Assembly: GCA_964036045.1 (NCBI GenBank)
Contig: OZ038385.1
Coordinates: 63,765,670 to 63,829,669, forward strand
Origin: Eutreptiella sp. 'Long Island Sound 2002'
Taxonomy: Eukaryota; Euglenozoa; Euglenophyceae; Eutreptiales; Eutreptiaceae
Direction: 5' to 3'
DNA length: 64,000 nt
Made by a program: the position numbers and the translations under genes. Each line of letters starts with the position of its first letter. Position 1 is the first letter of the stretch. The notes under the pieces are model-generated. The model was not told the DNA's origin. It saw only the letters and a list, made by a program, of their open reading frames with translations, and did not search any database. Below are positions 173 through 56,378 of this stretch, one piece after another.

Positions 173-3100
173 GGGATCTACGTCCGGGACATGAAGAGCG
201 GCACCGTGCGGTCGGTGATGGGCGAGACATACATGCTGGCGCCGGACGAGGAGCTGTGGGAGAAGCCGCTGCCTCCGCTGGTGTTGGAGAAGCTGCAGGC
301 CCTGCCCCGCGACAACAAAGTCCGCGCCGTAGCGCCGCGCGACCCGACGCGTGTAGTGACGTACAACGTGCCACACAACTGCGTCGTGCAGCTGTACGAC
401 TACAAGAGCAAGAAGCCGCGCATTGCTTTCGGACCGGATTTGGTGATGCTCGGGCCCGAGGAAGAGTTCACGGTGCTGAAGCTGTCCGGTGGCAGGCCCA
501 AGGAGCCGGGGAAGATCAAGTCGCTGTGCCTGTCCCTCGGCCCTGATTTCATGACGGACCTCGTGCAGGTTGTGCTTTTCGCATTTCGCATCACTGCCAT
601 GCGGGGTCCTCAGTCCCACAAGGCAACGGTATTGGCAGGGGAGGCCGTAGGTTGATGATGAGAGGAGAGAGATGCACTCTTTGGCACGGCCGTTTGTGCC
701 TCTGATCGTGGGTTACTGCTTTCCCAAAAGGGGAGGGGTTGAGGAACCCCGTGGCTGACGCACCCGTTTCGCTGTTGGTCGCCACCTCACGTTGGCCCCC
801 CGACCGGCTGCTGCCACGATCCCTCGGTTCCCATATGACCTCCCCACCCCCCGTCCAGGCATCTTCGCTTACCTCGCCTCAATCAGGCTTTACCGCCCCC
901 TCGAGGCATCGGCCGGGTGTGTCCAACGGTAGACACGGGTGGGGTAGGGGACACCCGGGCACCGCAGGGGGCCGTGTGTAACGGACGTGTGTGTGTGAGG
1001 ATGTGGCTCACCTCCTGCGCCCGGTGTGAGGACAGGGCCAACACCGCCTCATCATATCACTGGAGAAGGACCACCCCTGTTTCTCCAGCTTTGCCTTCCT
1101 GCTCCCGCGATCAGGGGTGCACCTCGACCCAGTCCTCGGACGCGCCATGCGGCGACTCTCCCTCACAGTGTTTGCTTTGAGCTTGCTGTCATTGGGTGCA
1201 CCCTGCCGTATGGGTGTCACAGGACTGGATGCCCCGCGGCTCTCCCCCCCTGGTTGAAGTGGGGTGACAGGGGGCATCTCAGTTCGTGTTGGACTTTGCT
1301 CGCGTTTTCGGCAGAAGGAGGCGAGGCCTCCGGAGCTTGTGCACTACCCGCGGAGAAATGAGCTCTGGGAAAGGTGCCCCTTTGAGTGTGAACCGTTCAC
1401 TTTTCCGGGAACTCCCTCGGCCTGTGGGGGAAACAGTAACTGCCCAGTTCCCACACACCCCGCGGCTGGTGGTCTGTTGGGTGGATGGCCCTGAGCCAAG
1501 GCCCCCGGCCATACTAGTGCAGATGCCCGTCCTGTAGACCCACCACCACCACCACCACCCTGCCCAGGAACGGCCGGCCCCGGCTGGCGCACGCCCCCCC
1601 CCCCCCCCCCCGCCTCCTAACCGGTCACTTCGAGGGGGTCAATTGCGTAGGTGGTGGTTCTTTACCCCCCCTTCCCTTTCGGCCCTACACAACAGCATGA
1701 CACAGGCCCCCGCGGGTGCCATGGTCGGCTGCGTGCGCTCTTGCTTGAACGGGCCTTCATTTTGTTGTCCGATGTTTTGTGCATGACCACCAAAGAGAAA
1801 CACGCAGATAATCTCGACACACCGCAGGGTTGCCCGACCCCCACCCACCCACGCGCTATGCGCAAACAGCGTGTGGGTGGGTGCCCCCCCCACACCCAAG
1901 TGCACCAACAGACCTTGGTGCGCCAGTGTGATCAGCCTTTGTTGACCCCCCCCCGGCCCCGGCCCCGGTTCCATGACTCTCTGCCACGTCCGCGTGCAGG
2001 TGGAGACCTCGGACCACGCGCGGCTGTCGCTGCAACTGGCGTACAGCTGGTTCTTTGACTGCCCGCATGGGGACGTCGACGCCGCGACCAAGGTGTTCAA
2101 CGTGTCGAACTTCGTGGGGGATGCGTGCAGCGCCATCGCTTCCCGGGTCCGCGGCGCTGTGGCCGGGGAGCCGTTCGACACGTTCCACCGCAACTCGTCG
2201 AGCATCATCCAGGCCGCGGTCTTCGGCATCAACCGTGACACGGGCCGACCCAACCCCCGGCTCGAGTTCAAGAACAACCGGCTCGTGGTCACTAGCGTTG
2301 ATATCCAGGGCGTTGAGCCCGTCGACCCCAGAACACGGGAGGTCTGAGCCATCGGACCTCCACGCCTTTGCGCTGGTGCGAGCGTCCCCGTCCGACCGTC
2401 GTGTTTCAGACCGCAGCTGTTGCGCTGAAGAATGCGATGCCGCTCGTTCCGGTGCCGTATTGTAGTATTGTATTGTAGTGGGAAAGAAGGACCGGGTGGT
2501 GGCGTCTCTGCAAGCGCGGACTGGGGGGCTCCCGCCCTGCGGCGCCTGCGGCGAGCCGTCGGAATATTTCCGCCAACAGAATGGACGTGTGATTTGTGTT
2601 CGTAGGGGCCGGGGCCGTTGTCTCTCTTTTGTAAAGAGCGATGGTGTCAACGGGATCAATGTGCATCTTCGCCCCGCGCCCCCCCCCTCCTGCCGCTGCT
2701 CTCCTATCCGCACTGCCGGCGGCACCCACCATGTCTCGCCTCATCTCGCTCTCGACATCGCATGCACGCCTCCCTGCATTACCTCACTTGCCTGCCATGC
2801 CATGTGGATTGCCATCATGTCTCCATGCCGCACTGCCTCACGTCGCCTCCGCTTGTGATCCTTTTTTCACCCTTGCCATACCACTGAAACCCACTCAGCC
2901 TTGATGGCACCCGCCCCCAGTACCATTTTGTGAGGCCGATTTCGGTCTGCCTGTGCGTCTTAGTGGCAGTTCCATGCCCCACTTCAGTTCAGGAGCTGCT
3001 GTCGGTTTTTTGGGACCAACCTGCACCTTGTGGCTGTGCCCGTACATCAGCCCAGCGGTACTTCGCCACTGTGCGCACCATCCCCTGCAGGCGCTAATGA

Positions 3101-4610
3101 AGTCTGTACAGTTGGCGATTGAGATCACCACCAAGTCGCAGGAGGCGGCCGCCCGCCACGATGCAGAGCGCCGGGAGCAAGACGCGAAGGGGCATCTGGA
3201 GCGGCAGGTGATCGACGACAGCGCCAAGGCTGAGAAGGAGCGGCTTGTTCTGCTGGGGCTGCAGGCAGAGTCCGCGGCCATCGAGTCCACCGGGGCCAGC
3301 AAGGCCGAAGCGAAGGCCGTGGCCGCCGCCGCAGAGATCGAGGGCGAGTCGCAAGTGCACATCGCGAAACTCCGTGCGGAAGCACAGCGCGTAGCCGTGG
3401 AGGCTGAGCTGAGTGCCACGGAGGCCCAGCAGCAGGTGCTGCTGTGCTGCTTGGCTTGCAGTTGGCGGAAACACCGCAAGTGATGATGGTTTTCATTTGC
3501 TGCTGGTGCTGCTGCTGTTGTAGCTGCAGTCCACACGCATTAACGATTGGACGTCTCAAAGGTGATGGAGGGATGGGCCATTAAGAAGATGGAAAGTCTC
3601 AAAGTGGGTGATGGAGAGTGAGAGACCACACACACACTCTACACACACCGTACACGTAACATGCCGTGTACAAAGGCCGCATATCCGACCAACACGCCAC
3701 ACGCCCCTCAGCCCCCACGCGCGGTGGGACAAACAACCACCGCCACGCACTGCCCAGGCCCCACAGCAGGACATTGGTAGGTAACCACCCACCACACAGC
3801 ACTTGGTGATCCGGAATCCCCTGGACCTGTGTTACATTTCCCACATCGGTGGTGGTGAGCCTGGGTTGGGGGTGAGGAGAGCGGGTCCAAACAAACTGTG
3901 AGGTGGGCAGCCTGTTGGGCTACCTAACAGCCGGGGGAAAATTATTTTTATTGTGTGAGAGTGGGACAATCGTCCCGCTACTCACAAGCGCTGCTTCTGC
4001 CCCTTGGCGTCCCTCCCAACGGGTGGACAATCAACACCTGCAGTTTATCAACGCATCACTTGTACAGGGGAGTAGACCCCCTGCGTTGATACATTGCAGG
4101 GTCTAGACCCTGGCACCGAGTGGAGGGCTCCCTCCTCAAAAGGCGCACACGTACGGACGCCCGAAAGTACCAACCGGCATATTTTTTCAGCCTTTATGAT
4201 ACACCTTGATTCCCGTCATGTCGGATGTGCATCGTGGCATGCGGCGCTTGTGATGGGGCAGACCGTTGCCCCAATAGTTGGGGCTTTAGGCCCTGGACCC
4301 CGGACATGGGGTGTGCCTGTGATGACTTCCTGCTGTCGTACAGGCGGAGCTGTGCTTTCAGGCCGAAATGAACAAGTTGGAGGTGGAGAAAGCAAAGCAG
4401 CTGTCCGAGATTGACACCCTCAAGTTCCAGAAAAGTGTGGGCGCTGTCGGCCGCTCGACCATCGCGGCCATGGCCCGGGCGGGCCCGGAGATGCAGGCCA
4501 AGCTCCTGAAGGGCTTGGGGTTGCAGGGGTACCTGATGACAGATGGCAATTCCCCCATCAACCTCATGAACGCCGCCAGCCAACTGACGGGCGGTGCGGT
4601 GACAGTGTGA
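173..4610 (+). CDS. MVP: Major vault protein, 3' portion in four exons
   Basis: MVP is the shell subunit of the cytoplasmic vault ribonucleoprotein. Four exons join in phase 0: 173-568, 2000-2341, 3091-3435 and 4344-4610, giving 449 codons before TGA. The first begins after a CCCAG acceptor with [13 protein letters not shown], so earlier exons lie outside the window. Exons 1-2 carry the last MVP repeats and shoulder region ([61 protein letters not shown]). Exon 3 encodes the shoulder end and Ala/Glu-rich cap helix ([17 protein letters not shown]). Exon 4 encodes the cap end ([28 protein letters not shown]). Junctions are CAG|GT, GAG|GT and CAG|GT to CAG. Animal MVP is roughly 850-900 aa, so about half is here. 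The exon 4 start is ambiguous: 4344 or 4362, both AG and both in frame. The protein ends soon after the conserved cap, without the long animal tail. Confidence 0.93.
569..1999 (+). other. MVP intron (phase 0)
   Basis: This 1,431 bp intron runs from GTTGTG to CGTGCAG. It is pyrimidine-rich with C homopolymers (about 1591-1610 and 1946-1956) and holds no convincing coding sequence. Open frames inside it are shadows. Confidence 0.85.
2342..3090 (+). other. MVP intron (phase 0)
   Basis: This 749 bp intron has donor GAG|GTCTGA and acceptor CCCCTGCAG. A pyrimidine-rich stretch lies at about 2670-2890. No coding content was recognised. Confidence 0.85.
3436..4343 (+). other. MVP intron (phase 0)
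   Basis: This roughly 908 bp intron has donor CAG|GTGCTG and acceptor GTCGTACAG. If the alternative acceptor at 4360-4361 is used it is 18 bp longer. It contains CA-rich sequence at 3625-3660 and no recognised gene. Confidence 0.8.
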
Positions 4611-6835: not shown

Positions 6836-7815
6836 TGCGTTGGTAGACCGCCTTTTGGCTGCACAGCCTTGTGTGTGCACCGCCTTGCCTGTGGCCCCTT
6901 AAATAACAAGACTCCTGCGGTGGCCACAGACCGCCTTTGGTGTGTTCTGCCTTGTGTGTGCACCGCCTTGTGTGTGCACCGCCTTGCCTGTGGCTCCTTA
7001 AATAACAAGACTCCTGCGGTGGCCACAGGCCGCCTTTTGTGTGTTCCGCCTTGTGTGTGCACCGCCTTGCCTGTGGCCCCTTAAGTAACAAGACTCCTAC
7101 GGTGGCCACAGACCGCCTTTTGTGTGTTCCGCCTTGTGTGTGCACCGCCTTGTGTGTGCACCGCCTTGCCTGTGGCCCCTTAAATAACAAGACTCCTGCG
7201 GTGGCCACAGGCCGCCTTTTGTGTGTTCCGCCTTGTGTGTGCACCGCCTTGCTTGTGGCCCGTCAACTAACATGACTCCTGCGGTGGCCACAAACCGCCT
7301 TTGGTGTGATCCGCCTTGTGTGTGCACCGCCTTGTGTGTGCACCGCCTTGCCTGTGGCTCCTTAAATAACAAGACTCCTGCGGTGGCCACAGACCGCCTT
7401 TTGTGTGTTCCGCCTTGTGTGTGCACCGCCTTGCCTGTGGCCCCTTAAATAACAAGACTCCTGCGGTGGCCACAGACCGCCTTTGGTGTGATCCGCCTTG
7501 TGTGTGCACCGCCTTGTGTGTGCACCGCCTTGCCTGTGGCCCCTTAAATAACAAGACTCCTGCGGTGGCTACAGACCGCCTTTTGTGTGTTCCGCCTTGT
7601 GTGTGCACCGCCTTGCTTGAGGCCCCTTAACTAACATGACTCCTGCGGTGGCCACAGACCGCCTTTTGTGTTTACTGCGTTGTGTGTGCAACGCCTTGCC
7701 TGTGGCTCCTTAAATAACAAGACTCCTGCGGTGGCCACAGACCGCCTTTTGTGTGTTCCGCCTTGTGTTCGCCCCGCCTTCTGTGCGTACCGCCTTGCCT
7801 GTGGCCCCTTAAAGA
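6836..7815 (+). repeat. Two-level tandem array, alternating about 98 and 82 bp
   Basis: About ten units share CTCCTGCGGTGGCCACAG followed by CCGCCTTTTGTGTGTTCC. Alternate units contain the 16 bp block GTGTGTGCACCGCCTT once or twice, so the period alternates near 82 and 98 bp. This makes a higher-order unit of about 182 bp. Open frames on both strands are repeat translations, not genes. Confidence 0.85.
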
Positions 7816-11859: not shown

Positions 11860-12655
11860 AAGGAAGAAAGAAAGCCCCTGAATGCCTCCTTCTCGAGCCG
11901 GGGAAAAGCTCGAGGCAGGGATCTCCAAGCCCCTGATTGCCTCCTCCTCGAGCCGGGGTATGAAAGCTCGAGGCAGGGATCTTCAAGTGCCGGTCTCGGC
12001 GAATTGGCTACATCTCACCATGATGGTTGGGGCCCAAAAGAGGGCGGAAATGCTACATCACCCCTGCATTCTCCGGGGTCCCCAACAAAGGGAACAAAAT
12101 CAGAAGTCAAAACCTACGCCGGGGGTCACCCTGATGCACCACGCAACAAAGCGTGGATTCAAATATTGTCCCGGTTTCCTCAATAGCACCGGACGATTGG
12201 GGCCCAAAAGAGGGCGGAAATGCTACATCACCCCTGCATTCTCCGGGGTCCCCAACAAAGGGAACAAAATCAGAAGTCAAAACCTACGCCGGGGGTCACG
12301 CTGATGCACCACGCAACAAAGCGTGGATTCAAATATTGTCCCGGTTTCCTCAATAGCACCGGACGATTGGGGCCCAAAAGAGGGCGGAAATGCTACATCA
12401 CCCCTGCATTCTCGGGGGTCCCCAACAAAGGGAACAAAATCAGAAGTCAAAACCTACGCCGGGGGTCACGCTGATGCACCACGCAACAAAGCGTGGATTC
12501 AAAGATTGTCCCGGTTTCCTCAATAGCACCGGAAGGTTGGGGCCCAAAAGAGGGCGGAAATGCTACATCACCCCTGCATTCTCGGGGGTCCCCAAAAGAA
12601 GGGGAACAAAATCAGAAGTCAAAACCTACGCCGGGGGTCACCATGATGCCCCTAG
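11860..12655 (-). repeat. E-family internal region, inverted, with 170 bp tandem units
   Basis: This is the reverse complement of the inside of the E transposon (compare 50670-51370). It holds two CTCGAGCCGGGG hairpin blocks at 11895-11990, then four tandem units of 170 bp, each with the GGTCACC, AAAATCAGAAGTCAAAACC and GGGGCCCAAAAGAGGGCGG segments. Neither E terminal repeat is present, so the copy is truncated or belongs to a related family. Confidence 0.8.
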
Positions 12656-14545: not shown

Positions 14546-15237
14546 TGCGATATATGACTGGCCACTGGCCAAAAAGCTTCTGGCCAATGTTTATTTATGG
14601 GCTGTGCTCGTTGAATTTGCAATTCAAAGTATGGGTTTTGGGGGCCACATAGAGTGTTGGGGAAACCACGCATTGGCAATCCAAGAGGCAACACCATGGA
14701 AGCAAAGATAGCTGTTGAAAGGTACAACTGCTTGGGAAAGGTGGAAATAGTGGTGGAGAGCTCCAAAGGTGTGGCCAAGACTGTACATAGAGGTCCTGTA
14801 GTGGCACCTGCAGCCGTTTGCAAATGAGTTCCTTGGAGTCCTAGGATTTCATCACATGTCCCACAGCCGGCGTCGGTCAGGGGGACCATTGAGGCACACA
14901 AGGCAAACGTGGGGGTTGGCATTGATGAGGCGCACGAAGGTGTGCTATAAAGGCTGACATATCGAAGGCTCCCAGCATGTAGATGGCTGAACAGCCCACA
15001 GCCCAAGCAGATATCCAGTGCTGTGGGTATGACCTCAGATTGCTGAGGATACCACAGTATCATCTAAGGGCATCTCCATGGGTGCCGCTTGCAGAGCACC
15101 CTATTCGTGCGTGAATAGGCGGTCTCCCAAATTTACTGGCTTCGCCATATGAATTGCACCGCGCCGGGTCGGTGGGATGGACGTCATGACCAGGCGGTGT
15201 TCTGCTCTCAGGTTCTTTTTGTGAAGGTTCATCTCTC
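14546..15237. other. Upstream region of the RNA-end/primase fusion gene
   Basis: 14546-14655 matches a dispersed segment also found at about 6050-6110 (TTGAATTTGC, TTCAAAGTATGGGT, GGGGCCACA). The rest up to the start codon holds no recognised gene or promoter motif. Confidence 0.5.
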
Positions 15238-18200
15238 ATGGGCCGCAAAAAGCAAGGCGCGGAGCCCACATGTATGGAGAGCACACAGGGACAAAAGAAT
15301 GCCCCATTCACCCCGGCAGATCGGATCTTTCATCGCATTATTTGGGACGAGAGTTTGAATATGAATGACTTTGAGGTTGGCTACGAAGACCGCTTCAAGG
15401 GTCTCCTGTGGACCTCGATCCGGAAATTCCGTTCCGGTGATGATGAAGTGAGTGAAGTGCCTTTCCATCGAGTTCTACAATTCCGATGGCGCGGTCTTGC
15501 AGTCGTATGGGACAAGAAGGCACGAATCAACATTTTGGATCAAGTGGCGGCGGGAACGCTCAATGCCCACAATGCCGTTCCCCGAGCGTTGCAAACAGCT
15601 GCTGGACCTGTTGGGGGTGGCCAGTCCTCATTGTTGAGTGTCGGAAAATGGGACGATGCATTGAAGATCTGGACCTCCTGCGGCGCCTCGGCCTTCGAGA
15701 CTTGCAGCCGCAGGGCAATTAAAGTGTGCACCTACAACGTACTCTTTGATCATTTTGAAGCGGAGAAGTTGCACGTGGACCGGCGATACGACATGCTGCT
15801 GCAGTCTCTACAAGAATGGGATGCGGACATCGTTGGGTTGCAGGAGGTCCCGTCGCACTCCCATCGCACTCCTTTTACCATCTTTCCGTTGCACTACCCG
15901 CCCTCGCATTCTCTTCGCACTGTTGCCGCTTTCTGGTTTGTGGGCCGCCGGTTGTGTGGTGATCGAGCAGTCGTGTTGTTTGTGCGCGTTTGTGTAGTGC
16001 CCTTGGCGCGTTTGCTTGCTGTTGCTGGTTTTTTCGTACATGCTTGCCATTGCTGTACTGTGTGTTGCTTTGCAGTGCTTGTTTTGTTATCCGTTGTGAC
16101 GGGTGGTTTTCTCGCCCGTTGTCCAGCCCGTGCCTTGTTCTGGCGCAGATCAGCCTCCTGTCAAACTCTGTTTGCATCACGTGGAAAGTCTCTGCATCCG
16201 ACGCGCTCCCTCCTGTCGAAATGCTTGCAGCCGGTGCGCACTACCTCCTCACAGTCTTCGCACTCGTGTCGCAGTATTTGCACAACTCCGTTCACACACC
16301 CTCTTCACACGCTTTTCACCATTTACCTTCACACTTCGCATTTCCGGCAGCACGACCGTTCACAATTCCTTCGTACTCCCTTCGCATCCCATTCACACAC
16401 CTTTCGAATTTCCCACATTTTTGCTATTTTTACTTCGCATCCCCTGCGCCTTGTCTTCGCAGGTGACCCCAGCGCTTTTGCAGCAGCTCTTGGCGTCAGA
16501 GTACGTCCAGCAGACGTATTTTGTATCCGATCACAGTTCTGAGAGTGTGAAGCCTTCGGGGCAGCTTTTGCTGTCCAAACTGCCGCTGCGCTCCGCGTGG
16601 ACTTACCATTTCGCTAGGCACTCCTCCAAGAGAGCGCTGTTCGGAAGAGTGCAGATCGGTGGCTGCGACGTGGCCATTGCCTGCGTACACTTGATCAGCG
16701 ACTACGCCGCGAACTGCGTGCAACGCCGATTGTCGCAGCTGCAGGACGTGTTCCTGCAGCTCCGGGACTGCAGCGACTGCCTGATGCTGGGGGACTTCAA
16801 CTTCGGGGACTTGGGGGAGGAGACGCAGCTCGTGCACTGGGGCCGGTACATCGACGTGTGGCGCACCCTTCAGCCCCTTGCGCCGGGATTCACGTTCGAT
16901 CCTGCGACCAATCCCTTGGCAGACCTCACGTCCCGCAACAAACAGCCCCGGCGGCTGGACCGCATCCTGATGCAGTCCGACGTCCTGACCCCAACGGATG
17001 TCTCAATCGTGGGCACCAACTACCGGACGATCACAGTGCCCGCAGCCGGCCCCAGCCCAGCGAGCCTTGGGTTGCCCGCTCCTGCCGCTTCCAGCGGTCG
17101 TCGGGGGTGCGAGGGAACGGATGGGGCAGGTCCTCGGGACCCCGCACCCCCGGAATGTGGTTCCACAAGCAGCAGTGCGGGCGCGGGCGACGCGCCGGCC
17201 GTTGAGGGCCCAGAGCGCGCTCCAGTCGGCGCTGGTCCTGACTACGAAGCCGTACACGACCCCGACGATGAGGCGGAGGGCGCAGGGCCCACGGAGGACT
17301 TCCGGCTGCACGCCTCCGACCACTACGCGGTGCTGTGCACCGTCGCGGTGGCGGCGGCGGTGCCGGCGCCGCTCCCCGACAACGTTCCCCTGAGCCATCA
17401 GACGGCCGTTGTGGTGATCCCGCCGGCGGAGCTCTGGCCGCCGCTGCAGGACATCCGGCGGCATCACGACAAAGCGTACACCCGCTGGCCCCCGCACTTC
17501 AACGTACTGCACCCGTTCATCGCGGAGGAGGTGCTGGAGCTCCACTGCCCCCGAATCGCGCTGGCCTTGGCCCACTTGCCGCCGTTCAGCGTGTCGCTGG
17601 CGCAGGTCGACGCCTTCGACGACCGCAGGGGCTATTTGTGGTTCGGGCCGGGCAGCCTCGAGGAACAGCGCGGCATGTGCCGACTGCACGGCCTCTTGGC
17701 CTCGCAGTTCCCCTTTTGCCGGCGCGAGGGCTACACGCCCCATCTCACGGTCGGTCAGTTCGGGCCCAGCGACATCATCCACCATCGGAAGGAGATCAAT
17801 CGCCGGTGGCGGCCCGTCCGCTTCACTGTCGACCGGGTCCACGTGCTCGCCAAGCCCGCGGGCCACGGGCCCTACCGCGTCGTGTACAGCGTCCCCCTGG
17901 GGCAGGGGCCGCCGGGGGACGTCCCTCAGTGGGAGCCCGCCACCTTCCCGGACTGGGGGCCAGGGACGGGGGCTGCGGAGGAGGAGGAGGAAGCGGAGGA
18001 GGAGGAGCCGCCCGTGCCTTGCGGCAGCGGCAGCGGGACGCCCTTCGCGTGTCCGCCCGACGCGGACGCGATGGTCCTGGACCGCCCCGCCGTCGGGGCC
18101 CGCAAACTGACGCCGTACGCGCCGCGGGACGCCCTCGAACGCTGGATGCTGCGGCACACGCGACGGGGCCTGGCCCGCGCCGCGCCGACGCACGTCTCGC

Positions 18201-19060
18201 AGTTGGGGGCCATGTACCACATCCCCAGTGCACTGGTGGACGGGTACCTCGAGCACTGGGCCCAGAGCGTGCGCGACAGCGACGCCACCCCGTTCTTTAT
18301 GGAGGAGGTCCGGGGGGACGTGTTCCGGTTGTACCTGGACCTCGACCTCAAATGGACCTCCGCAGGCCTCTTCGACCTCCTCCCCTCGGGCCTCCTCTTC
18401 CTCGTCCTCGCCCACACCCGCGCCTTCTGCTCCCTGTGGGACCGGGCGCCCCCGGTGGCCGTCGTGACGGAGTGCCAGGGCCCGTGGTCGGACGAGCGGC
18501 ACCGCGACGCCGTGTATAAGTCCGGGTTCCGCGTGTTCTTCCAGGGGCTGTTTGTGGACTGCGCGCTGTACAAGGCCTATTTGCAGACGCTGGGCGCCAC
18601 GCTGGAGCATGCGGCACGGAGGCCGGAGCGCGCGTGCGCGGGGCAGGGCTGGGCGGATATTTGTGATATGGGGGCCGTGAGTTGGGATCGGGGGCGGTTG
18701 ATGGGGACGGTCAAGCGCCGGCGTAGTCTGCAGCGTCAGTACCGCTACATGGGGGCCTTTTCTCTCGGCGCAGTGGCTGATGCTGCCATTCGGTCGTGGG
18801 CGGACTGTCCGTTGGCCGAGTTGGCCGAGCGGACGGAAGCATTACTTGGCCCCTGGGGCCTGTATGAAGGCCCACCGGGAGTGGTGATAGACACCGCGCT
18901 GCATGAACAGCTGCAGTCCAGCCTGCTGCACGTGCTGCATGCCACCACTCTTCGGGTGTGGGACAGCCCGACGGTGTGCCCTGCAGAGGCACAGGCCTTC
19001 ATGCTTCACGCAGACGTCGATCAGTCTTATGCAGCCCGTCGGGGGGGACTCGAGCTGTGA
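15238..19060 (+). CDS. Fusion protein: MJ1316 - EEP nuclease - 2H phosphoesterase - primase-like
   Basis: Exons 15238-15846 and 16463-19060 join in phase 0 at the EEP motif GLQE|V, giving 1,068 aa. Residues 21-95 match the MJ1316/DUF504 domain (TPADRIFHRI, DFEVGYEDRFKG, VPFHRVL), proposed to recognise cyclic RNA ends. Residues about 160-500 are an EEP phosphodiesterase with N167 (TYNVLF), E203, LGDFNFGD, RLDRIL and SDHYAV. An acidic, low-complexity insert of about 80 aa precedes the last motif. Residues about 520-660 are a 2H phosphoesterase/RNA ligase-like module with PHFNVLHPF and PHLTVGQF. After an acidic linker, residues about 710-990 resemble an archaeo-eukaryotic primase of the viral type: YLDLDLKW (about 827-834), YKSGFRVFF (about 888) and GRLMGTVKRRRS. 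The usual second-motif His is Arg here. A role in RNA-end processing or repair is inferred. A weak donor at 19057 could extend the gene to an exon at 19122. Confidence 0.82.
15847..16462 (+). other. Intron inside the EEP domain (phase 0)
   Basis: This 616 bp intron has donor GAG|GTCCCG and acceptor TTCGCAG. It is pyrimidine-rich with many TTCACAC-like repeats. Splicing it joins GLQE to VTPALLQQLL, which is the expected EEP consensus, so frames reading into it are not coding. Confidence 0.85.
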
Positions 19061-19190
19061 GGGTCGTGCTGCTGCTGCGGGTGTGAGTGTGGATTTTGCA
19101 TGCGCTGGTCTTGCCTTGCAGGGCAATGCGGACATGCAGAAGGACAATACTTGGGTTCTACAAGTGCAGGCTGTGCCTCAGTGTGGCTGA

Positions 19191-21790: not shown

Positions 21791-22850
21791 TTGGGCCACT
21801 TCTGGGCCACTGCTGATTTTGTACCCCGCTCTGAAGCATCGGGGACCCCCCAAACGGCAGGGGTTATATAGCCACGCAGCCCACTTGTGGGCCACTTCTG
21901 ATTTTGTGCCCCACTCTGAAGCACAGGGGACCCCGCACACGGTAGGAGTTATGTAGCCACTAGGCCCACTTGTGGGCCACTTCTGATTTTTTTCCGCCAC
22001 TGTGAAGCATAGGGGACCCCGCAGACAGCAGGGGTTATGTAGCCACCCGGCCCACTTGTGGGCCACTTCTGATTTTGTGCCCCGCTCTGAAGCATCCCCC
22101 CCCCCCCCCGACAGCAAGGGTTATGTAGCCACTAGGCCGGCCTGTGGGCCACTTCTGATTTTGTCCCTTGCCTTGAAGCATAGGGGATCCCCCAGATGGT
22201 AGGGGTTATGCAGGCACTGGGCCCACTTGTGGGCCACTTCTGATTTTGTACCCTGCTTTGAAGCATGGGGGACCCCGCAGATAGCAAGGGTTATGTAGCC
22301 ATCCGGCCCATTCGTGGGCCACTTCTGATTTTGTGCCCCGCTTTGAAGCATTGCCCCCCCCCCCCCCCAACAGCAGGGGTTATGTAGCCACCCATCCCAC
22401 TTGTGGGCCACTTCTGATTTTGTGCCCCGCTCTGAAGCATTGCCCCCCCCCCCCCCCCAACAGCAGGAGTTATGTAGCCAGTGGGCCCAGTTGTGGGCCA
22501 CTTCTAATTTTGTCCTGCGCTGTGAAGCATCAGGGACCCCCAAGACAGCAGGGGACATGTAGCCACTAGGCCCACTTGTGGGCCACTTCTGATTTTGTCC
22601 CGTGCCTTGAAGCATATGGGATCCCGCACACAGCAAGGGTTATGTAGCCACCTTGTGGGCCACTTCCGATTGTGTACCCTGCTCTGAAGCATAGGTGACC
22701 CCGTACATGGCAGGGGTTATGTAGCCAGTGGGCCCACTTCTGATTTTGTCCCGCGCTCTGAAGCATAGGGGACCCCATAGACGGTAGGGGTTATGTAGCC
22801 ACCCGGCCCACTTGTGGGCCACTTCTGATTCTCTTCCCCACCGAGGCATG
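21791..22850 (+). repeat. Tandem array of the 'GTTATGTAGCCA' unit, about 13 copies
   Basis: Units of roughly 80-95 bp share GTGGGCCACTTCTGATTTTG, a CCCCGCTCTGAAGCAT block, a variable GGGGACCCC or poly-C segment, and GCAGGGGTTATGTAGCCAC. Units at 22100, 22355 and 22443 have the central block replaced by long C runs. Minus-strand open frames are translations of the repeat. Confidence 0.85.
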
Positions 22851-30839: not shown

Positions 30840-30976
30840 GTACGTAATACGGCATGATTGGGTCGCCTCCGGGAATTTCTGCTCCCCCCCCTGCTCTGCA
30901 CGCCCCTAATGCAGCAGTGTTGCTGTCTCCCCTCCCAATTCTGTGCCTCTGCCTGCACCTTTTTGCCTTCTTCCAG
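30840..30976 (+). other. Probable 5'-UTR intron of the kinase gene
   Basis: A strong donor, CCAG|GTACGTAA at 30840, and a pyrimidine-rich acceptor, CCTTCTTCCAG ending at 30976, lie just upstream of the kinase ATG at 31002. This implies a non-coding first exon ending at 30839. Confidence 0.5.
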
Positions 30977-31001
30977 CAACACACGTTTTAAACATTCAAG
31001 C

Positions 31002-32423
31002 ATGGCTCCCGCTCCAATGAGCACTCCGATCGAGTGGACCCTCACCTCCAATGAAGATTGGCGGAGCATCCAACTGCCGCGGCAGTACACGCCGCTGTCA
31101 TTGCAGGGGGAGGGTTCGGGGGGAGAAGTCTGGGTGTGCAACGATACCTTGCAGAACGTTCAAGTGGCGATCAAGAAGTTCTATGGGCTTGACCCTGCAG
31201 AACCCACTTTTCGCTTTGTGACGGCCCGGAAGGTGTGTCGTGAATTGCTGACCTTACGGCATCTGCAGCGCTGCCCCAACATTGTGAAAGTTGTTGGGGC
31301 TTTTGGCCTTTCGCAGAAAAGCCCCACAACCATGTACACTGTGATGGAATTCATGGAGTCGGACCTGGCGGCCTGCATTCGATGCAAAGGGCTGCAGTCG
31401 ATGGCCTGCATTCAGTACATCATGATGCAGGTCCTGCAGGGGGTGAAGTACATGCACGAGTGCGGCATCGTTCACCGTGACCTCAAGCCGGCAAATATCC
31501 TTGTGAAGGAGGACTGCACAGCCAAGATCGCGGATTTCGGGCTGGCCCGTCATTTGCATGTCGACTGCGACGTGTGCGCGATGCACAAAGACCTCACGCA
31601 GCACGTTGTCACGCGGCCATACCGCGCTCCAGAGGTTGTGTTGCGGCTGCCGTACGACGCAGCAATCGACAATTTCGCCGTCGGCTGCATTTTGGGGGAA
31701 ATGCTGTACAGCCTGCCCTTTACCGAAGAGGAGCTACGCCACAAATTCGACATCGCGTTGTTCTATGCGACCGACCCGTGGCAGCAGCTGCGGTTGATGA
31801 TTGGCCTGGTCGGCGCTCCCTCGGAGGAGGCGTTGGCGGACGTGCCGTGGCAGCACACACGACAGGGGCTGCGGAATCTGCAGCCCGACACGACGAAGTT
31901 TGTGGAGTTCTTCCAGCGGATTGAGAAACAAGGCTTTGCAGTGTGTAGCAGCCTTTGGGATGAGACTGACGGGCAATGGCACACTGCCGAAGAGTGGGTC
32001 CAGTGCACACGGGTGGCGGAGGAGCTGACTCGGGCACTATTGCAGTTCAGCCCGAAGCAGCGCTGCACTGCCGCCCAGGCGCTGCGGTCCCCTTTCGTCG
32101 CTGGCTACGTTGACATTGAAGAGGAAAGGGCAACGCCGCCTCCGCTACACTTTGATGCATCATTTGAGAGTCTGTCTGATGCCGAAGTGTATGACCTGTT
32201 GGGGAAGGTGGTCGCCAACAACAATCCCTCCGCGGCAGTGCGACGAGCCGGAGAGGGCACGTCCGGTGGTCCGATGCTCCTCGATGCGCCAACGGGGGAC
32301 ACGGCGCAGAGCCTGTCTTCATTTGGAATGGAGACTAGTTTGGAGCCTGTGCACGTGGCCTCCCAGGCATTGAGTTTTGAGGATTTATCTTTCAGGCCTT
32401 CAATGGATGTTGACCCTTCCTAA
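31002..32423 (+). CDS. MAPK-like serine/threonine protein kinase
   Basis: A single coding exon of 473 aa from ATG 31002; an in-frame extension back to 30858 looks like UTR/intron. Kinase features in order: Gly-rich loop GEGSGGEV (36-43), VAIKK with Lys58, alpha-C Glu81, catalytic loop IVHRDLKPANIL (Asp160, Asn165), DFG at 178-180, activation loop with TQHVVTRPYRAPE, then the VGCILGEML helix and an insert of about 30 aa before the C-lobe end near 367. The RAPE sequence and CMGC-type insert place it near MAP/CDK-like kinases. MAPKs carry TxY in the activation loop; here it is T199-Q-H201, so the usual tyrosine is missing. The usual D-x-W-S motif reads DNFAVG. A tail of about 105 aa is Ser/acidic-rich. 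Substrates are unknown. Confidence 0.88.
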   Translation: MAPAPMSTPIEWTLTSNEDWRSIQLPRQYTPLSLQGEGSGGEVWVCNDTLQNVQVAIKKFYGLDPAEPTFRFVTARKVCRELLTLRHLQRCPNIVKVVGAFGLSQKSPTTMYTVMEFMESDLAACIRCKGLQSMACIQYIMMQVLQGVKYMHECGIVHRDLKPANILVKEDCTAKIADFGLARHLHVDCDVCAMHKDLTQHVVTRPYRAPEVVLRLPYDAAIDNFAVGCILGEMLYSLPFTEEELRHKFDIALFYATDPWQQLRLMIGLVGAPSEEALADVPWQHTRQGLRNLQPDTTKFVEFFQRIEKQGFAVCSSLWDETDGQWHTAEEWVQCTRVAEELTRALLQFSPKQRCTAAQALRSPFVAGYVDIEEERATPPPLHFDASFESLSDAEVYDLLGKVVANNNPSAAVRRAGEGTSGGPMLLDAPTGDTAQSLSSFGMETSLEPVHVASQALSFEDLSFRPSMDVDPS

Positions 32424-37807: not shown

Positions 37808-40800
37808 GTCACAGGTCCTCTAAAATTCGTTCAGACAAACGTTACCTCTTTGCGCGTTCATCACGAGGACGTATTCAATTTTCAGGCAGATGTGATTGGA
37901 ATGGAAGAAACCCGGCTCACTGAGGCTGGGCAACGCTGCATGAGGGCAATTGCAAAAGATTGGGGCTGGGAATGCCACTGGGGAAAACCCCTGGGCTCCC
38001 CAACGGGGGGCATCTGGGGAGCTCCCCAAGGAGGGGTGGGACTTTTGTTCAGGAAGGGCTGGAGTGTCCGCAAGGTTGAGCCAGATCCAGACGACCCGAT
38101 TGCCTGCAGGCTGTGGCATTCGGGGCGCTGGCTACACACACGGGCAGGAATCGGTGCAGGGCACTGTGTGCTGAACATATTTGTAGCCTATGGCATACCA
38201 GGCAACGAATCTTTGAACCAGGAGTTCTGGGAGCAGGTGGTCTGCTATATGAGCAAACTAGGCAATGCCGGATGCATCCTGCTAACGGACGCAAATTTCA
38301 ATTTCGACCTGCTGCACAAAGTTCCTGCCGCACTCCTGACGGCGCTGGCAGACGGCTGGCTGGTGGATGCCGACCGCACTTTTAGCGTTCTCCATGGCAC
38401 GCCATGTGCATGTGGCTTCACGACAGCAGGCAAACCCCCCAACCGCATTGACGGCCTCCTGGTCACCCCAGCACAAGCAGGCACGTTGACTGATGTCACA
38501 GCGCTGAAGTCTCATTCCCTCCCTGGGCATGCTCCAGTGTGCTTCACTTTCTCGCTTGACGCACCAATGCAGAAAGTTGTTAAAATGAAGAAACTGCCTC
38601 CTTTCTCCCCCCCCCCCAGATCAGCTGAGGACACTCAGAAAATCTGTGACTCGCTGCTCCGGCCACACAAGGCAGGTTGGAATGCCCTGCTGCAACAAGG
38701 GAATGTCAATGACATTTGGAACAGGTGGACCTGGCTGGCCGAGGAAGTAGGCATGGCGCTCACATGCACGCATCTTACACTGGACACCCCCAGCCCCACA
38801 CTCCCGTTTGCACCCAAGAGTGCCCCACGGGGACGTGGCACGGAGCGAATGTTGCAGGACACTACGCTAGCTCCGACAGGCCTGGCGCCCAACGGCGGCC
38901 CACGCACGCGCATACTTTCCAAAATCACGGGGACCTTGGGAGCCCTTCGTTCGGTCATCCAGTGGCAACGTGCCCAGCTGGGCATCAGGGGCAAACGAGT
39001 CCCGGCATCCGCCAAACGCAAAGCCAGCCAGGTTTTCAGGCCAGGGGTGGTGCCCAGACAGGTGGAACTATCGTGGCAGGCCGCGTGCCGCCGCATGCGC
39101 AAAACAGCGCTGGCCTTTCGTGAGGACCTGCTGCTTCATGAATTTGTGGCCAGTGCCCCTGACCCCTCCCTCCCACTCATACGCCCCCTGCCAACGCTGG
39201 TAGACTGCATGTCGCTGTATGACAGCCTGTGCGCACTGGGGAAGAGATATGCCCGATATGAAGAGCGCACGCGCATTGATAAATGGAAATCCAAAATGGA
39301 CCAGGCCTGGCTGGACAGGCCAAAGGAGGTTTATCAGTGGATACAGAACGAGTACCAACCTCCTCTGGTTATGCTCCTGGACCCAGACACAAGCCAACCA
39401 ACGGCGAACATCCCCCGCATGGATGAAATTCTTCATGCCTCTTGGGACCAGGTTATGCGAAAATATGCAGACACCCCAGAGCCAGACGTGCACGCTTTTG
39501 CACAGAAATATGATAAGTTTCTGATAAAGGGAGTGCAGATGCAGTCCACCCCTATCACAGGGTCCCGGCTCGCGCAACGCCTTAGAAAAATGGGTGTTCA
39601 CACAGCCACCGGCCTGGATGGCTGGTGTGTTTCGGACGTACTACTGCTGCCCACCTGTCTGCTGGACATGCTGTCAGAAATTCTGTTTCTAGTTGAGGCA
39701 ACAGGAACCTGGCCCAGGGTCCTGGCGAGGGGATACGTCTCGCTGATCCCGAAAGGGGAAGGGATGATGCCGATGCAGCAACGCCCACTGTCCGTACTGT
39801 CCCAGATCTATAGGGTCTGGGCAGGGATCAGGTTAGAAGAGTGCATGGTGTGGCAGGAACTGTGGATCCACCCGCACGCTTACGGTTTTCGCAAGAAGCG
39901 CGGCGCCACTGATGCGGCCGCCTTTATCTCCATGCTCATTGAGCTACACAAACTGATGAAAGCAGTTCTGCATGGTTTTGGATTAGACTACATAAAATGC
40001 TTCGATTTAATCCCACAATCCATTGTACTGCATATTGCACTGACGCAGGGGATGGATTTGGGCACACACAGGGCCCTCTCTGGCATGTATCGCACTCTCA
40101 CAAGGTGCTTTAAAATAATGGGGTGTTTGGCCAGTTTTTTCGATGCCACCAATGGCATCCTCCAGGGCTGCCCATTGAGTGTGATACTCATCAATCTCCT
40201 GACCTCGGTCTGGAAGCGGGTGCTGGATGCACAGCAACAGGGCATCAAAGTCGCAGTACAGGCCCTCCCCCCCAGCGATCAGCCAGCGCAGGCCCTGCAC
40301 TTCATCCTAACTGCCCTTGGGTATGCGGATGACACTTATGGGTTTGCAGCCTGAAGCAATACCCTCACCCCCCTGCTAGACTGCACCACTGACTGGCTTG
40401 AGGACACGGGTCAAGGGGTGAACGCGAAGAAATCTGTCGGTTTTTCGTCAGACGCCCGTCACCCAGTGAAGGCAGCATTACAGGGGGTGCCCTTCCCTAT
40501 CTCTTCTGAGTTTAAGTCCCTGGGCGCGGGGGTCCGCACCACGGACGCGACTTGTTCGGGACCGCTCATCAAGAAAAGGATTTCCAGAGCCTGCAGCCTC
40601 CTGGATAGGGTGCATGGCGCTCAGGGCAATTTTGAAAGGAGATGCGACATCATCTCCACAATGATCACGGCCACTGGCCTGCACGCAGCAGAAATAGTGC
40701 CACTTCAGCCCAGAGACCTCCTGCCCTTCGAGACTAAGGTCATGCAGACCATTTGGGGACGGTCACGGCCCGGTAGGGCCAAAGAAATTTTTTTCACCTT

Positions 40801-42919
40801 GCTGTGCAAAGGGCACCGGATTGCACCCACCCTGGTACTTAAGTATCATCGCATCCTGTGGCTATCCCAGCTGTGTCGCACCAGGGGTGCTGGACAGATC
40901 ACAGCCCAGGCCATTTGGGAGATGACATCATTTCACAAAGGCTCCGGCCCATACGGCCGAGCCATGTCCACAGCACAGGAGTGTGGCTGGGTCGCTACGC
41001 GGGGATGGTGGGGATGGAAAGTGCCTGGGCGCCAGGAACCCCTCCTCCTATACGGGGATAAAAACACTGTCAAGCACGAGGTACGTGAGCAGCTGCGCTC
41101 GCAAATGCTGGACAGCCTGGTTCAGAGGCGTCCCCGCCTGTTCGCGGGGGCTCATTACACCACATGCCGGCGCCTGATCCAGCCCAGCATAGCGTCATTT
41201 GCCACAGAGCTACAGTGCTCTCTCCTGCGGAGCATCCTATCAGGAGCAACCTGGACAGCCCTCCGGGCCTATCAACGTGGCATGCGAGCCACATCCACGT
41301 GCCCGTACTGCGGCAATGCTCCGGAAAACGAGGAGCACATTTTTTGGCAGTGTTCAGCCTGGAGCACGGTGCGGGACACCCACCTGCCGGGCATCAGGAC
41401 GGCGGCAGCACAGATCACAGGCCTTCCCCTCATGGACCAGTGGCCCTCATGTTTACGACTTTGTGGGTTAGCCCCAGAGTTAGACACAGACAGCGTCAAG
41501 TCAGGGACAGCGCTCGCATTCATGACAGCTCTGCACAATATGTTAGTAGCCGTCTTGCAGGCCCGCAAGTTACGAGACACACAATCCCCCATGCTTTTCA
41601 TGGGGTCGAGCCTCTCACAGCAGCTTCGGCAATACCCGTACCACCAACTGGTGGGACCCCTCCCCAGACCGGAAGACAAAGGGTTACTTCTTTTGCGTAC
41701 CCCTAAGAAGGTGGAATGGCAGTGGGAAATGCCCTTTTTGGCGGACCTGCTGCGCTGGCTGAGGGAACTGCACTGGGCCCCTGAACCAGGCACGGTGACG
41801 TTCTTGGAACTTGCACTGGACTTTGAGGAATTTGCGCAACGCACCCTCCCACACGCTCCACAGGCAAAATTTAAGGGCACCACCCTTTCGCTGCAAGAGA
41901 GAGGCCGGGTCTTACGACTGGCAATGGCAAATGCGCAGCGCCTGGTCACCAAAGGCCATTTGCATCCGGCGCGTGTGGTCACACGCTGCAGCTCTTTAGT
42001 TCCTTTGGGGGGGCCGGCACTCTGCGGCCTGAACTGCCGCCCTTATTTCACTTGCCGCAGTGCCATGAACATGCACGTTCAGCAGTTAGCGGCATACTGT
42101 GAGCGCACATGGGCCACCAAGGTTGGTCTCAACAGGATACACAAATTGCGCCCGCACACACACAGGCCACGCAGAACAGCGCAGGAAGTGGAGGAGCATC
42201 GGCTACAGCGTGCACTCCAGGGGAATCTGCAGTTGGGGCTGGCCCCGCCCTCGGAGCAGACCACTTTTGCCAAAGGGGGGGGGGGCTGCTCCTCCTTTGC
42301 AGCTGATTTCTTCCCTGTGATAGGGGATGGGAAGCTCCCACAGCGCCCCTACACCAGGACACGCAGGCGCGCAAACACACACAGGGGGCCACCACCGGCG
42401 CCGCCGGCTGATCCGTCAAAGTGTGCCCAGCACTCGGCTGACGCATGCACGACCTGCAAGAGATTTCGGCGCACAGCTGAAGCGTGCTGTGCGCTGGGAC
42501 ATCACGCTGATGACCACATAGCACGCAGACCGCAACTGCAACTGTGCCCACTGCATGGCCTGCCACCGTGCCCGAGGTGCACACTCAAGCAAAGGGGAGT
42601 GCGCCACTGCTGTCAGCGGGGACACCATAAAGTGTGCACCCCAGTGCCTGCGCGCCGGAAACGCCCACTTGCTGCACATGCACAACTGCCCAACAAACGA
42701 CCACGCCTGCAAGGGCCTGCACGTATCTCAACGGGTCTGCTGAGGTCCCCACACCAACCCCCCACCCCTCCAGCCCCCAAGCGCAGGAGGCCGAAAACAC
42801 CCCCCCCTCCGTCCCCACCTGCCCCAGTTCCACGGGGGCTGGAGGAGACCGTGGCCGAGGATGTCGCCCGCCCGCTTTTCGTGACGAGGCACGGGAGAGC
42901 AAACACTCTGGATACTTAG
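37808..42919 (+). pseudogene. Non-LTR ORF2: endonuclease-reverse transcriptase, one in-frame stop
   Basis: One frame runs from after a stop at 37805-37807 to TAG 42919, broken only by TGA at 40352-40354. The APE-like endonuclease opens with FVQTNVTSL and has MEETRL, LTDANFNF, NRIDGLLV and LPGHAPV. The reverse transcriptase follows: GYVSLIPKGEG, GLDYIKCFDLIP (motif A), GILQGCPLSVIL (motif B) and YADDTYGFAA (motif C), with the stop directly after this last box. Beyond the stop come the thumb, a CCHC finger (CPYCGNAPENEEHIFWQC) and an unusual Cys/His-rich tail at about 42418-42640 (CAQH, CTTC, CCALGHH, CPLH, CPRC, CCQRGHH). There is no ATG near the frame start; the first initiator may be non-AUG or coupled to ORF1 termination across the C run. 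Confidence 0.85.
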
Positions 42920-47694: not shown

Positions 47695-47835
47695 CGAAGT
47701 TTTCCATAAAAACTGAGGTTTTGGGAGGGGGGGGGTACAGTGGCAGAGGCAGAGACTGAGGCTGACCACCCCCCCCCCCCCCCCTGTACTTTTCAGTTGA
47801 TGCTTTTCTTCTGACTGTGCTTTCGGGGGGACTAC
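47695..47835 (+). repeat. Split direct repeat A1
   Basis: CGAAGTTTTCCATAAAAACT, a G run, TACAGTGGCAGAGGCAGAG, a C run, TGTACTTTTCAGTTG to GGACTAC. It is nearly identical to 53868-54006 apart from the homopolymer lengths. Confidence 0.9.
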
Positions 47836-47839
47836 AAGC

Positions 47840-48928
47840 ATGCCGGGGGGTACATCGAATGGGTCATCGGACGCGGCTAGTGGGGAGAGCCGCGGGGCAA
47901 AGCGGGCCAGGCTGGCCTTCAACCGGGACGACATGGACCTGGACCCCGTCAAGACCCCCGAGTACGCACGCTGGGAGCGGTGGCGAGATCACGCAGCGGC
48001 TACCGCGTACGGGTTCCTGGACAGCGCGGACGCCGGCATCATGGCTGCCCGGTACCAGGAGCGGCTGATGGAGGATGGCCTGTCCGTGGCGGGCGTTGAT
48101 CGGGCAGTGGAGTGGGCCGGCGGCGGGCTTGACGCCCCGACGGCCCTGATATACATGGCCCTCTTTGAGCGATCAACGGACCTGCGGCTCGACGTCGAGG
48201 CGGCTGCGTGGAAGGCGGTGCCGCAGCCCAGCCCGCCTGCCCGGGAGCAGGCAGAGCAGACGCCGCAAGACCAGCCGCGGCAGCCGCAGGAGTCCCCGGA
48301 GCAGGCGGAGATACGACGGCTGGAGGCTCGCATCCGGGAGCTCCAGCTACCAAAGGTACCACCCCTATCCGAGGGAGAGCTAGCCAAGATAGCCGCGGGG
48401 CAACTTCCCTGGCTCTGGCAGCAGGAGCTCGTCCAGGCCTTGAGCACCTGGCTCAAAACGGAAGACCCCGTTGGGAGGGGCAATGCGGTTGTGGAAACGC
48501 TGTGGAAGGTGGTCTACAGGGACTGCCAGCCTACGCCCACCCACCCTGCTGGGGCGGCGGCGCGGCCAGCGCCACAGGGATGGTACGCCCAAGCCCAGCA
48601 GCCTACGCCGAGTCAGACCCAGGCTCCGGCGCCGGCTCAGGCGCAGGCCCCGGCCCCTGCCCCCCCTGGGGCATGCTTCCGCTGTGGCTTGCACGGACAC
48701 TGGGCCAGGGACTGTGCCAGTGGTACCCAGGGGCGGGCCCCCTCCGTCGCCGGTTCCGTCGCAGGCTCGTACCGGGGGGGGTTCAGTACCATGGGTAGCC
48801 AGAGCCTGTACACAGCGCACAGCACGGGCCGCACCTATGACGCGACTGGACCCCCCCCGTACCCATGTTTTCGGTGTGGCCGCAACCACTGGGCCGTGGG
48901 CGGCCCGTGCCCGGCGCCGCCTGCCTAG
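47840..48928 (+). CDS. Gag-like protein of the tyrosine-recombinase retroelement
   Basis: An intact frame of 362 aa from ATG 47840, five bases after repeat A1. The N-terminal half is alpha-helical and acidic (KRARLAFNRDDMDLDPVKTP, a predicted helix at about 160-180). The middle is Gln/Ala/Pro-rich. The C-terminus has a CCHC zinc knuckle, CFRCGLHGHWARDC (C-x2-C-x4-H-x4-C), and a second degenerate one, CFRCGRNHWAVGGPC. Together with its position this identifies the nucleocapsid/gag role: packaging element RNA. The next ORF follows in another frame. Confidence 0.82.
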   Translation: MPGGTSNGSSDAASGESRGAKRARLAFNRDDMDLDPVKTPEYARWERWRDHAAATAYGFLDSADAGIMAARYQERLMEDGLSVAGVDRAVEWAGGGLDAPTALIYMALFERSTDLRLDVEAAAWKAVPQPSPPAREQAEQTPQDQPRQPQESPEQAEIRRLEARIRELQLPKVPPLSEGELAKIAAGQLPWLWQQELVQALSTWLKTEDPVGRGNAVVETLWKVVYRDCQPTPTHPAGAAARPAPQGWYAQAQQPTPSQTQAPAPAQAQAPAPAPPGACFRCGLHGHWARDCASGTQGRAPSVAGSVAGSYRGGFSTMGSQSLYTAHSTGRTYDATGPPPYPCFRCGRNHWAVGGPCPAPPA

Positions 48929-48929
48929 G

Positions 48930-50537: not shown

Positions 50538-50669
50538 CAATGTCCTGTCCCTCTTGCAGGCGTGGTGGGCGGAGGGGGAACGTTAGCGCGCCGGGCGCGC
50601 GCCGGGCATCTTTTTGGACCCGTGCCCCACCGGTGACCTTTTAGGGGGTGCGCTAAGGGGCGCACTTAG

Positions 50670-51180
50670 GACAATCTTTGAATCCACGCTTTGTTGCGTG
50701 GTGCATCATGGTGACCCCCGGCGTAGGTTTTGACTTCCGATTTTGTTCCCTTTGTTGGGGACCCCCGAGAATGCAGGGGTGATGTAGCATTTCCGCCCTC
50801 TTTTGGGCCCCAACCGTCCGGTGCTATTGAGGAAACCGGGACAATCTTTGAATCCACGCTTTGTTGCGTGGTGCATCATGGTGACCCCCGGCGTAGGTTT
50901 TGACTTCCGATTTTGTTCCCTTTGTTGGGGACCCCCGAGAATGCAGGGGTGATGTAGCATTTCCGCCCTCTTTTGGGCCCCAACCTTCCGGTGCTATTGA
51001 GGAAACCGGGACAATCTTTGAATCCACGCTTTGTTGCGTGGTGCATCATGGTGACCCCCGGCGTAGGTTTTGACTTCCGATTTTGTTCCCTTTGTTGGGG
51101 ACCCCCGAGAATGCAGGGGTGATGTAGCATTTCCGCCCTCTTTTGGGCCCCAACCGTCCGGTGCTATTGAGGAAACCGGA
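50670..51180 (+). repeat. 170 bp tandem units inside E1
   Basis: Three units (period 170 bp), each with GACAATCTTTGAATCCACGC, TGGTGACCCCCGGCGTAGG, GGGACCCCCGAGAATGCAGG, GGTGATGTAGCATTTCCGCC and GGTGCTATTGAGGAAACCGG. Two such units lie in E2 (47334-47690) and four, inverted, at 11.99-12.65 kb. Confidence 0.9.
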
Positions 51181-51414
51181 ACAATCTTTGAATCCACGCT
51201 TTGTTGCTTGTGTTGTTGTTTGTGTCCAATTCGCCGATACCGGCACTTGAAGATCCCTGCCTCGAGCTTTCATACCCCGGCTCGAGGAGGAGGCAATCAG
51301 GGGCTTGAAGATCCCTGCCTCGAGCTTTTCCCCGGCTCGAGAAGGAGGCAAAAAGGGGCTTTCTTTCTTTCTTCTTTGCGTTGTGTTGCGTTGTGTTTTG
51401 TTGCGTAGTTCCTG

Positions 51415-51789: not shown

Positions 51790-51989
51790 GTGCAACACAA
51801 ATGACATTTGGAGTGGTTGAAGTCACAGATATTGCTTTATTTTGCAACGTGCTTTGTAGGGAAGGTGTGCAGTGCAACGTGGTCTACTTGGGGGGCTTCT
51901 CCATGGGAGGGTAAATCTGGGGCTGAAGTCGGGATAGTTAATACAAAAGTAGTGCGCCGGGCGCGCGCCGGGCAAACATTCCCCCGGAG

Positions 51990-56295: not shown

Positions 56296-56378
<83 letters not shown>

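Follow-up and report, generated by a model that had tools for sequence, protein, structure and literature searches.

The window analysed here, a 64,000-nt stretch of contig OZ038385.1 of Eutreptiella sp. 'Long Island Sound 2002' (assembly GCA_964036045.1, positions 63,765,670 to 63,829,669), raises the question of what a protein does that carries, in one chain, an MJ1316 domain (RNA cyclic group end recognition), an EEP domain, a 2H phosphoesterase domain, and an archaeo-eukaryotic primase-polymerase (AEP) domain. Its sequence indicates that the locus is one spliced gene on the plus strand encoding this four-domain protein. We tentatively read the product, with a probability of roughly 0.42, as an RNA 3'-end healing and re-extension protein of a euglenid that would operate without a conventional ligase.

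Splicing of 15238-15846 to 16463-19060, starting from the ATG at 15238, gave a continuous protein of 1068 amino acids. The intron is 616 nt long, which is not a multiple of three, so its retention would shift the frame. The EEP profile (PF03372) scored 19.3 bits against exon 1 alone (below the cut-off of 24.5), 26.7 bits against exon 2 alone, and 61.5 bits (1.3e-16, residues 164-377) against the spliced protein; because the domain crosses the junction and scores higher once spliced, one gene is favoured, and a reading as two genes was rejected on these grounds. The predicted splice at 15847-16462 is thus supported by continuity of both frame and domain. Across codon positions, GC content was flat in the intron (0.54/0.54/0.52) but varied in the exons, more strongly in exon 2 (0.70/0.51/0.83) than in exon 1 (0.58/0.42/0.60). 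The open run of exon 2 spans 865 codons, whereas none of 500 first-order Markov resamples of this DNA had a run longer than 530. A frame of 612 amino acids on the opposite strand (17003-18841) had no Pfam match at E 0.1 and was taken as a by-product of the GC-rich codons.

For the 3' end of the gene, an earlier note on this DNA had placed a second intron at 19057-19122. A GTGAG donor is present; the AG that would serve as acceptor, however, has its last base at 19121. Intron ends at 19121 and 19122 would give proteins of 1095 and 1127 amino acids, respectively, and the tail of the longer version showed GC values by codon position (0.44/0.57/0.52) unlike those of the exons. The plain stop codon at 19058-19060 is at least as good an end as the alternative last intron.

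A Pfam scan of the spliced protein with curated cut-offs placed all four domains above threshold in the one spliced frame, as the earlier note had proposed from the motifs. That note had called the fourth domain the weaker one, yet two Pfam AEP families overlap there above their cut-offs, PPL4 (PF18188; 2.2e-23, 83.4 bits, cut-off 25) and AEP_C962R (PF23162; residues 779-943, 1.3e-7, 32.4 bits, cut-off 23), and the domain is well supported. The same scan found no conventional ligase domain of the ATP-grasp or RtcB type in the 1068 residues. The features of the gene are listed in Table 1.

Table 1. Features of the four-domain gene, in window coordinates.
Feature	Position	Strand	Remarks
Candidate AG acceptor after TTCTGCTCTC	15210-15211	+	Trans-spliced leader or intron of the 5' untranslated region; by eye
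Exon 1	15238-15846	+	203 codons; MJ1316 and start of EEP; open frame; PF04457 1e-14 with exon 1 alone
MJ1316 (RNA cyclic group end recognition)	15313-15516	+	Residues 26-93; PF04457 1.3e-13, 51.9 bits, cut-off 26.3
EEP, first part	15727-15846	+	Residues 164-203; PF03372; N167 and E203 motifs
Intron	15847-16462	+	GT-AG, 616 nt, within the EEP domain
Exon 2	16463-19060	+	865 codons and stop; rest of EEP, 2H, acidic linker, AEP, C-terminal part; open frame, Pfam
EEP, second part	16463-17323	+	PF03372 to residue 377; H279, D314/N316, D369, S488-D489-H490
2H phosphoesterase	17420-17851	+	Residues 523-666; 2_5_RNA_ligase2 (PF13563) 1e-28, 100.7 bits, cut-off 27
Acidic E-rich linker, 2H to AEP	17933-18037	+	Residues 694-728; from the sequence
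AEP	18122-18682	+	PPL4 at residues 757-915, extending to motif III (residue 943)
C-terminal part with no recognised domain	18683-19057	+	Sub-threshold PG_binding_2 match only
Possible alternative last intron	19057-19121	+	GTGAG..CAG; unproven

Motif positions in the EEP, 2H, and AEP domains were determined by pattern search in the protein. The EEP motifs N, E, H, DxN, D, and SDH were all located (N167, E203, H279, D314/N316, D369, and S488-D489-H490), although the SDH motif was placed by eye and lies outside the Pfam match, past a low-complexity insert at about 17063-17314. The 2H family has two catalytic histidines, each with a T or S two residues past it, and here the histidines are H548 (PHFNVL) and H630 (PHLTVG). 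A search of the genome (2.28 Gb in 2205 contigs, the window being part of contig 8) with the exon 2 protein returned the gene itself and five further matches, three in the 2H part (29-32% identity) and two, both short, in the EEP part; the AEP part had no further match. Two of the three 2H matches, L009 and L010, were confirmed as 2H by Pfam, and the third, L011, has a stop within the match. Both histidines were invariant in a three-row alignment with L009 and L010. In L010 (genome contig C26), the second motif reads AHLGVG, and catalysis may be changed in this paralog. The catalytic residues predicted for the EEP and 2H domains of the four-domain protein are largely kept.

The AEP domain was aligned in five rows with four other AEPs of the same genome (L014, L016, L017, and L018). 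Motif I (LYLDLD, D829/D831) fits the pattern hhhDhD/E, and both of its aspartates were invariant in 5/5 rows, as was the lysine of motif II (K889-S-G-F-R893). Motif III (ICD, D938) fits hD/E and aligned with the FDI of L016 and L017; it is displaced in L014, and L018 stops short of it.

Profile searches of the genome were run exon by exon and scored only the best candidates, and genes cut by introns may be missed. Under these conditions, MJ1316 (PF04457) and PPL4 each had a single match in the 2.28 Gb, and both matches fell in the four-domain gene. Since each family is represented once and both occur in one gene, the sequence suggests that the two domains work together.

On the reading that we favour, the MJ1316 domain would bind RNA on which cleavage by a metal-independent RNase has produced a 2',3'-cyclic phosphate at the 3' end, and the 2H domain would open the cyclic phosphate. 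The EEP domain, as a metal-dependent phosphodiesterase or phosphatase, would then remove the remaining phosphate or trim nucleotides to leave a 3'-OH, at which the AEP domain would re-add nucleotides, or it would hold the RNA if its motif II change cost it activity; the order would be to sense, open, clean, and extend. The human EEP enzyme ANGEL2 clears 2',3'-cyclic phosphates so that a 3'-OH remains, and it is from a 3'-OH that an AEP-superfamily polymerase would have to start extension. RNA-repair systems include a conventional RNA ligase (ATP-grasp or RtcB). Because the chain has neither, sealing would be left to a separate enzyme, unless the 2H domain joins the ends through a 2'-5' link, as do some 2H relatives, from which the Pfam name '2-5 RNA ligase' derives.

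This reading is consistent with published descriptions of the domains. MJ1316 is described as recognising RNA 2'-3' cyclic ends and as diversely fused to RNA-repair domains across eukaryotes (PMC6514570), and 2H domains are described as processing such ends, which allows damaged RNA to be joined again (PMC5512222). For the mitochondrial transcripts of diplonemids, which are the sister group of kinetoplastids, sealing by a ligase of the RtcB type has been proposed (PMC12699882). The earlier note had likewise read the protein in terms of RNA ends, and the MJ1316 and 2H domains fit that view. The four domains, their order, their encoding in one gene, and most of the predicted catalytic residues are supported by the sequence; the RNA substrate, the order of steps, the addition of nucleotides, and the biological role are what we infer.

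Several points weigh against this reading. The first 2H motif of the four-domain protein is HxN (HFN), where L009 and L010 have HxT, and its second motif reads HLT; HxN may also occur in other members of PF13563. In motif II of the AEP domain, arginine (R893) takes the place of the histidine carried by 4/4 of the other AEPs of this genome (K-D-G-L-H or K-T-S-F-H), and polymerase activity may be lost or changed through R893. Models of the AEP domain were unusable, with a mean pLDDT of 34.9 when built with no relatives and 39.6 when built with only four, so it is the sequence profiles that identify the AEP fold. Fold searches with the second model gave no significant match: no AEP chain was among the best 50 matches of one search, and the PrimPol chain of an asfarvirus that another search ranked 8th (E 1.6) is meaningless at such model quality. 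Furthermore, among eukaryotic genomes, the searches covered that of the source organism.

One rival reading is that the AEP domain has lost catalysis and acts as a scaffold that binds RNA, the protein being a three-step end healer (MJ1316, 2H, and EEP) with no synthesis. In its favour, motif II is defined as sxH (PMC5862659), a rule from which R893 departs, and the same source describes the motif as required for nucleotide binding in studied AEPs. In the opposite direction, the DxD of motif I, the aspartate of motif III, and the invariant lysine of motif II are all kept, the PPL4 match is strong (2e-23), and the PPL4 family may itself carry arginine at this position. A section heading in PMC5862659 also states that motif II differs in new AEP families, and an altered motif II is therefore compatible with activity. 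R893 thus decides nothing in either direction, and we consider a purely scaffolding AEP rather unlikely. Given the arginine, we do not claim an active primase, and membership in the AEP superfamily is taken from the profile. For the earlier suggestion of a stand-alone repair enzyme, the four domains are indeed present, but the wording goes beyond the evidence in view of the missing conventional ligase domain, R893 in motif II, and the unusable AEP models.

The remaining readings are best weighed together with the other AEP genes of the genome. AEP_C962R had five matches: one in the four-domain gene, a strong one at L014, and three (L016, L017, and L018) that represent a second AEP type. L016 (genome contig C21) is a frame at 682-3414 of 910 amino acids, with AEP_C962R at 1.4e-7 and a long G/R/K-rich tail. 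Its AEP is preceded by a weak match to RNase III that narrowly misses the cut-off of 27 (2.4e-5, 25.5 bits) and is absent from the genome-wide RNase III listing; L016 is possibly an RNase III-primase fusion similar to those of kinetoplastid RNA silencing, with related AEP copies at L017 and L018. Like the four-domain protein, L016 would combine an AEP with what may be an RNA-processing domain. It differs in its AEP_C962R type and K-T-S-F-H motif II, and no MJ1316, EEP, or 2H domain was listed for its frame.

Such a frame, with a sub-threshold RNase III match followed by an AEP and a G/R-rich tail, favours a role in RNA silencing, in which the four-domain protein would trim or mature the ends of small RNAs or target RNAs while its AEP synthesises or primes RNA, as proposed for kinetoplastid prim-pol and Dicer-like proteins. 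In their 2016 abstract, Burroughs and Aravind reportedly linked kinetoplastid prim-pol domains to Dicer-like proteins, and the genome analysed here has 14 Piwi-domain and five RNase III matches. However, the Pfam scan found no RNase III, PAZ, or double-stranded RNA-binding domain in the four-domain protein, and its MJ1316 and 2H domains indicate cyclic-phosphate ends, whereas RNase III cleavage yields no such ends. We regard a silencing factor as unlikely.

The domains that point to RNA ends also bear on two further readings. The protein could turn over 2'-5' oligoadenylate or a similar nucleotide second messenger, with the 2H and EEP domains degrading it and the MJ1316 and AEP domains binding or making it. 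PDE12, an EEP enzyme, has 2'-phosphodiesterase activity, which would suit such a role, although we know of no 2'-5' signal in euglenids. Action on 2'-5' linkages is likewise described for 2H domains, which have been proposed to counter nucleotide signalling (PMC5512222), but MJ1316 is an RNA-end domain, and we consider this reading very unlikely. Highly improbable is a function in DNA repair or damage tolerance, in which a TDP2-like EEP would clear blocked DNA ends and a PrimPol-like domain would re-prime: MJ1316 and 2H are RNA-end domains, and the protein has no helicase or zinc finger in the Pfam scan. What favours it is that TDP2 (EEP) and PrimPol (AEP) are DNA-damage enzymes and that the AEP domain also matches the giant-virus primase family PF23162.

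L014 (genome contig C1180, 228692-232231) carries a strong asfarvirus-type AEP_C962R match (1.3e-37) on a contig of 0.95 Mb and could be a giant-virus insertion comparable to those reported in Euglena gracilis. Its presence on another contig, together with the AEP_C962R match in the four-domain protein itself and the Asfuvirales insertions described for Euglena gracilis (PMC12455990), would agree with the four-domain gene being a captured giant-virus gene or gene fragment. This origin is nevertheless extremely improbable. A GT-AG intron interrupts the gene, a kinase gene and retroelements lie in the same window, PPL4 fits its AEP far better than C962R does (2e-23 vs 1e-7), and scans of viral contigs with exon 2, part of exon 1, the 2H part, and the AEP alignment gave no relative, insensitive as such scans are. 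Compared with asfarvirus-type AEP_C962R PrimPols, which the domain matches more weakly across motifs I to III, the AEP of this gene fits PPL4 better, and the C962R-type L014 keeps the motif II histidine. The helicase part of viral C962R PrimPols was not found in the four-domain protein.

Searches outside the genome covered collections of prokaryotes and viruses. With three pieces of the protein, PHROGs gave nothing for two and one chance-level match for the third (E 0.1), and PADLOC gave no match for any. NCBIfam yielded only sub-cut-off matches of MJ1316 and 2H type. In sequence searches of the PDB, the 2H part had a weak match to 2d4g (E 0.0046), the N-terminal 504 residues had nothing at 1e-3, the AEP part had nothing significant (best E 0.12, and 0.67 with the alignment profile), and the AEP piece of L014 had no match. 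The tblastn searches found no match to the AEP part in phages or to the AEP core in GTDB contigs, and six scans of IMG/VR contigs, including those with exon 2, part of exon 1, the 2H part, and the AEP alignment, gave no relative; such pattern scans require near-exact peptides and are therefore weak, insensitive tests. Rfam had no match at gathering thresholds over the whole window.

The paraflagellar-rod family Flagellar_rod, which is typical of Euglenozoa, had 39 matches in the genome (best 1.2e-105) and 0 in 14 control genomes, a weak control in which the named genomes are bacteria or archaea; these paraflagellar-rod genes mark the source as a relative of kinetoplastids. The Pfam family PPL4 is reportedly linked to Burroughs and Aravind 2016. 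Divergent AEP domains in multidomain proteins, mainly of kinetoplastids, have been predicted to act in RNA repair, a prediction that a passage by Kazlauskas and colleagues credits to a 2016 paper (PMC5862659). The likeness to these proteins, drawn from that citing description only, lies in a PPL4-family AEP combined with RNA-end domains in a euglenozoan host, and it counts in favour of the RNA-end reading. The addition of a primase-polymerase, to which the earlier note had drawn attention, was thus already credited to the 2016 paper in the passage quoted, and the genome is itself euglenozoan.

Other known systems share only parts of the architecture. Animal LENG9 has MJ1316 and 2H in common with the protein described here, but it carries a CCCH finger and is not known to contain EEP or AEP. 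A fusion of a C12orf65-like release factor to MJ1316 likewise sets MJ1316 as an RNA-end sensor on an effector, but this effector is a peptidyl-tRNA hydrolase, and the passage in PMC6514570 mentions no EEP, 2H, or AEP. The passages of that source on MJ1316 fusions do not describe the four-part fusion, and no description of it was found among the titles and abstract beginnings listed from open-licence literature. The novelty is limited, as the general kind has been reported from relatives, and the chance that precisely this architecture is new to the literature is modest. It is possible, though doubtful, that one polypeptide covers the whole 3'-end side, that is, senses, opens, and removes the cyclic phosphate and resynthesises lost nucleotides with an AEP of arginine-type motif II. 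We know of no such RNA re-extension enzyme, template-directed or untemplated, from model organisms.

Elsewhere in the window, a protein kinase gene occupies a single open frame at 30858-32423 (Pkinase 2.3e-49). A retroelement of the long interspersed nuclear element (LINE) type lies at 37808-42919, with a reverse transcriptase match (5.7e-8) and a sub-threshold zf-RVT match in the next frame; by eye, 56192-58060 repeats much of its downstream frame. A second retroelement at 47801-53737 has a gag-like frame with a zinc knuckle and a reverse transcriptase frame (7.2e-12), and its type is perhaps DIRS-like, which is a guess. Long tandem arrays with units of about 83-182 bases occur at 6845-7780, 12027-12649, 21796-22839, and 50669-51207, those at 12027 and 50669 being alike by eye and on opposite strands.

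To our knowledge, a role for primase-like domains alongside RNA-processing domains in Euglenozoa is so far a prediction. The gene described here, being single-copy, lends itself to direct testing by biochemistry. Laboratory editing is available for Euglena gracilis (PMC13142649), so that a single-copy gene whose chemistry is clearly predicted would be convenient to test, provided that the host is that species or a near relative. Should the AEP domain extend RNA ends after healing, RNA repair by resynthesis would take place within one protein, and this would explain the pairing of primase-like and RNA-processing domains in Euglenozoa.

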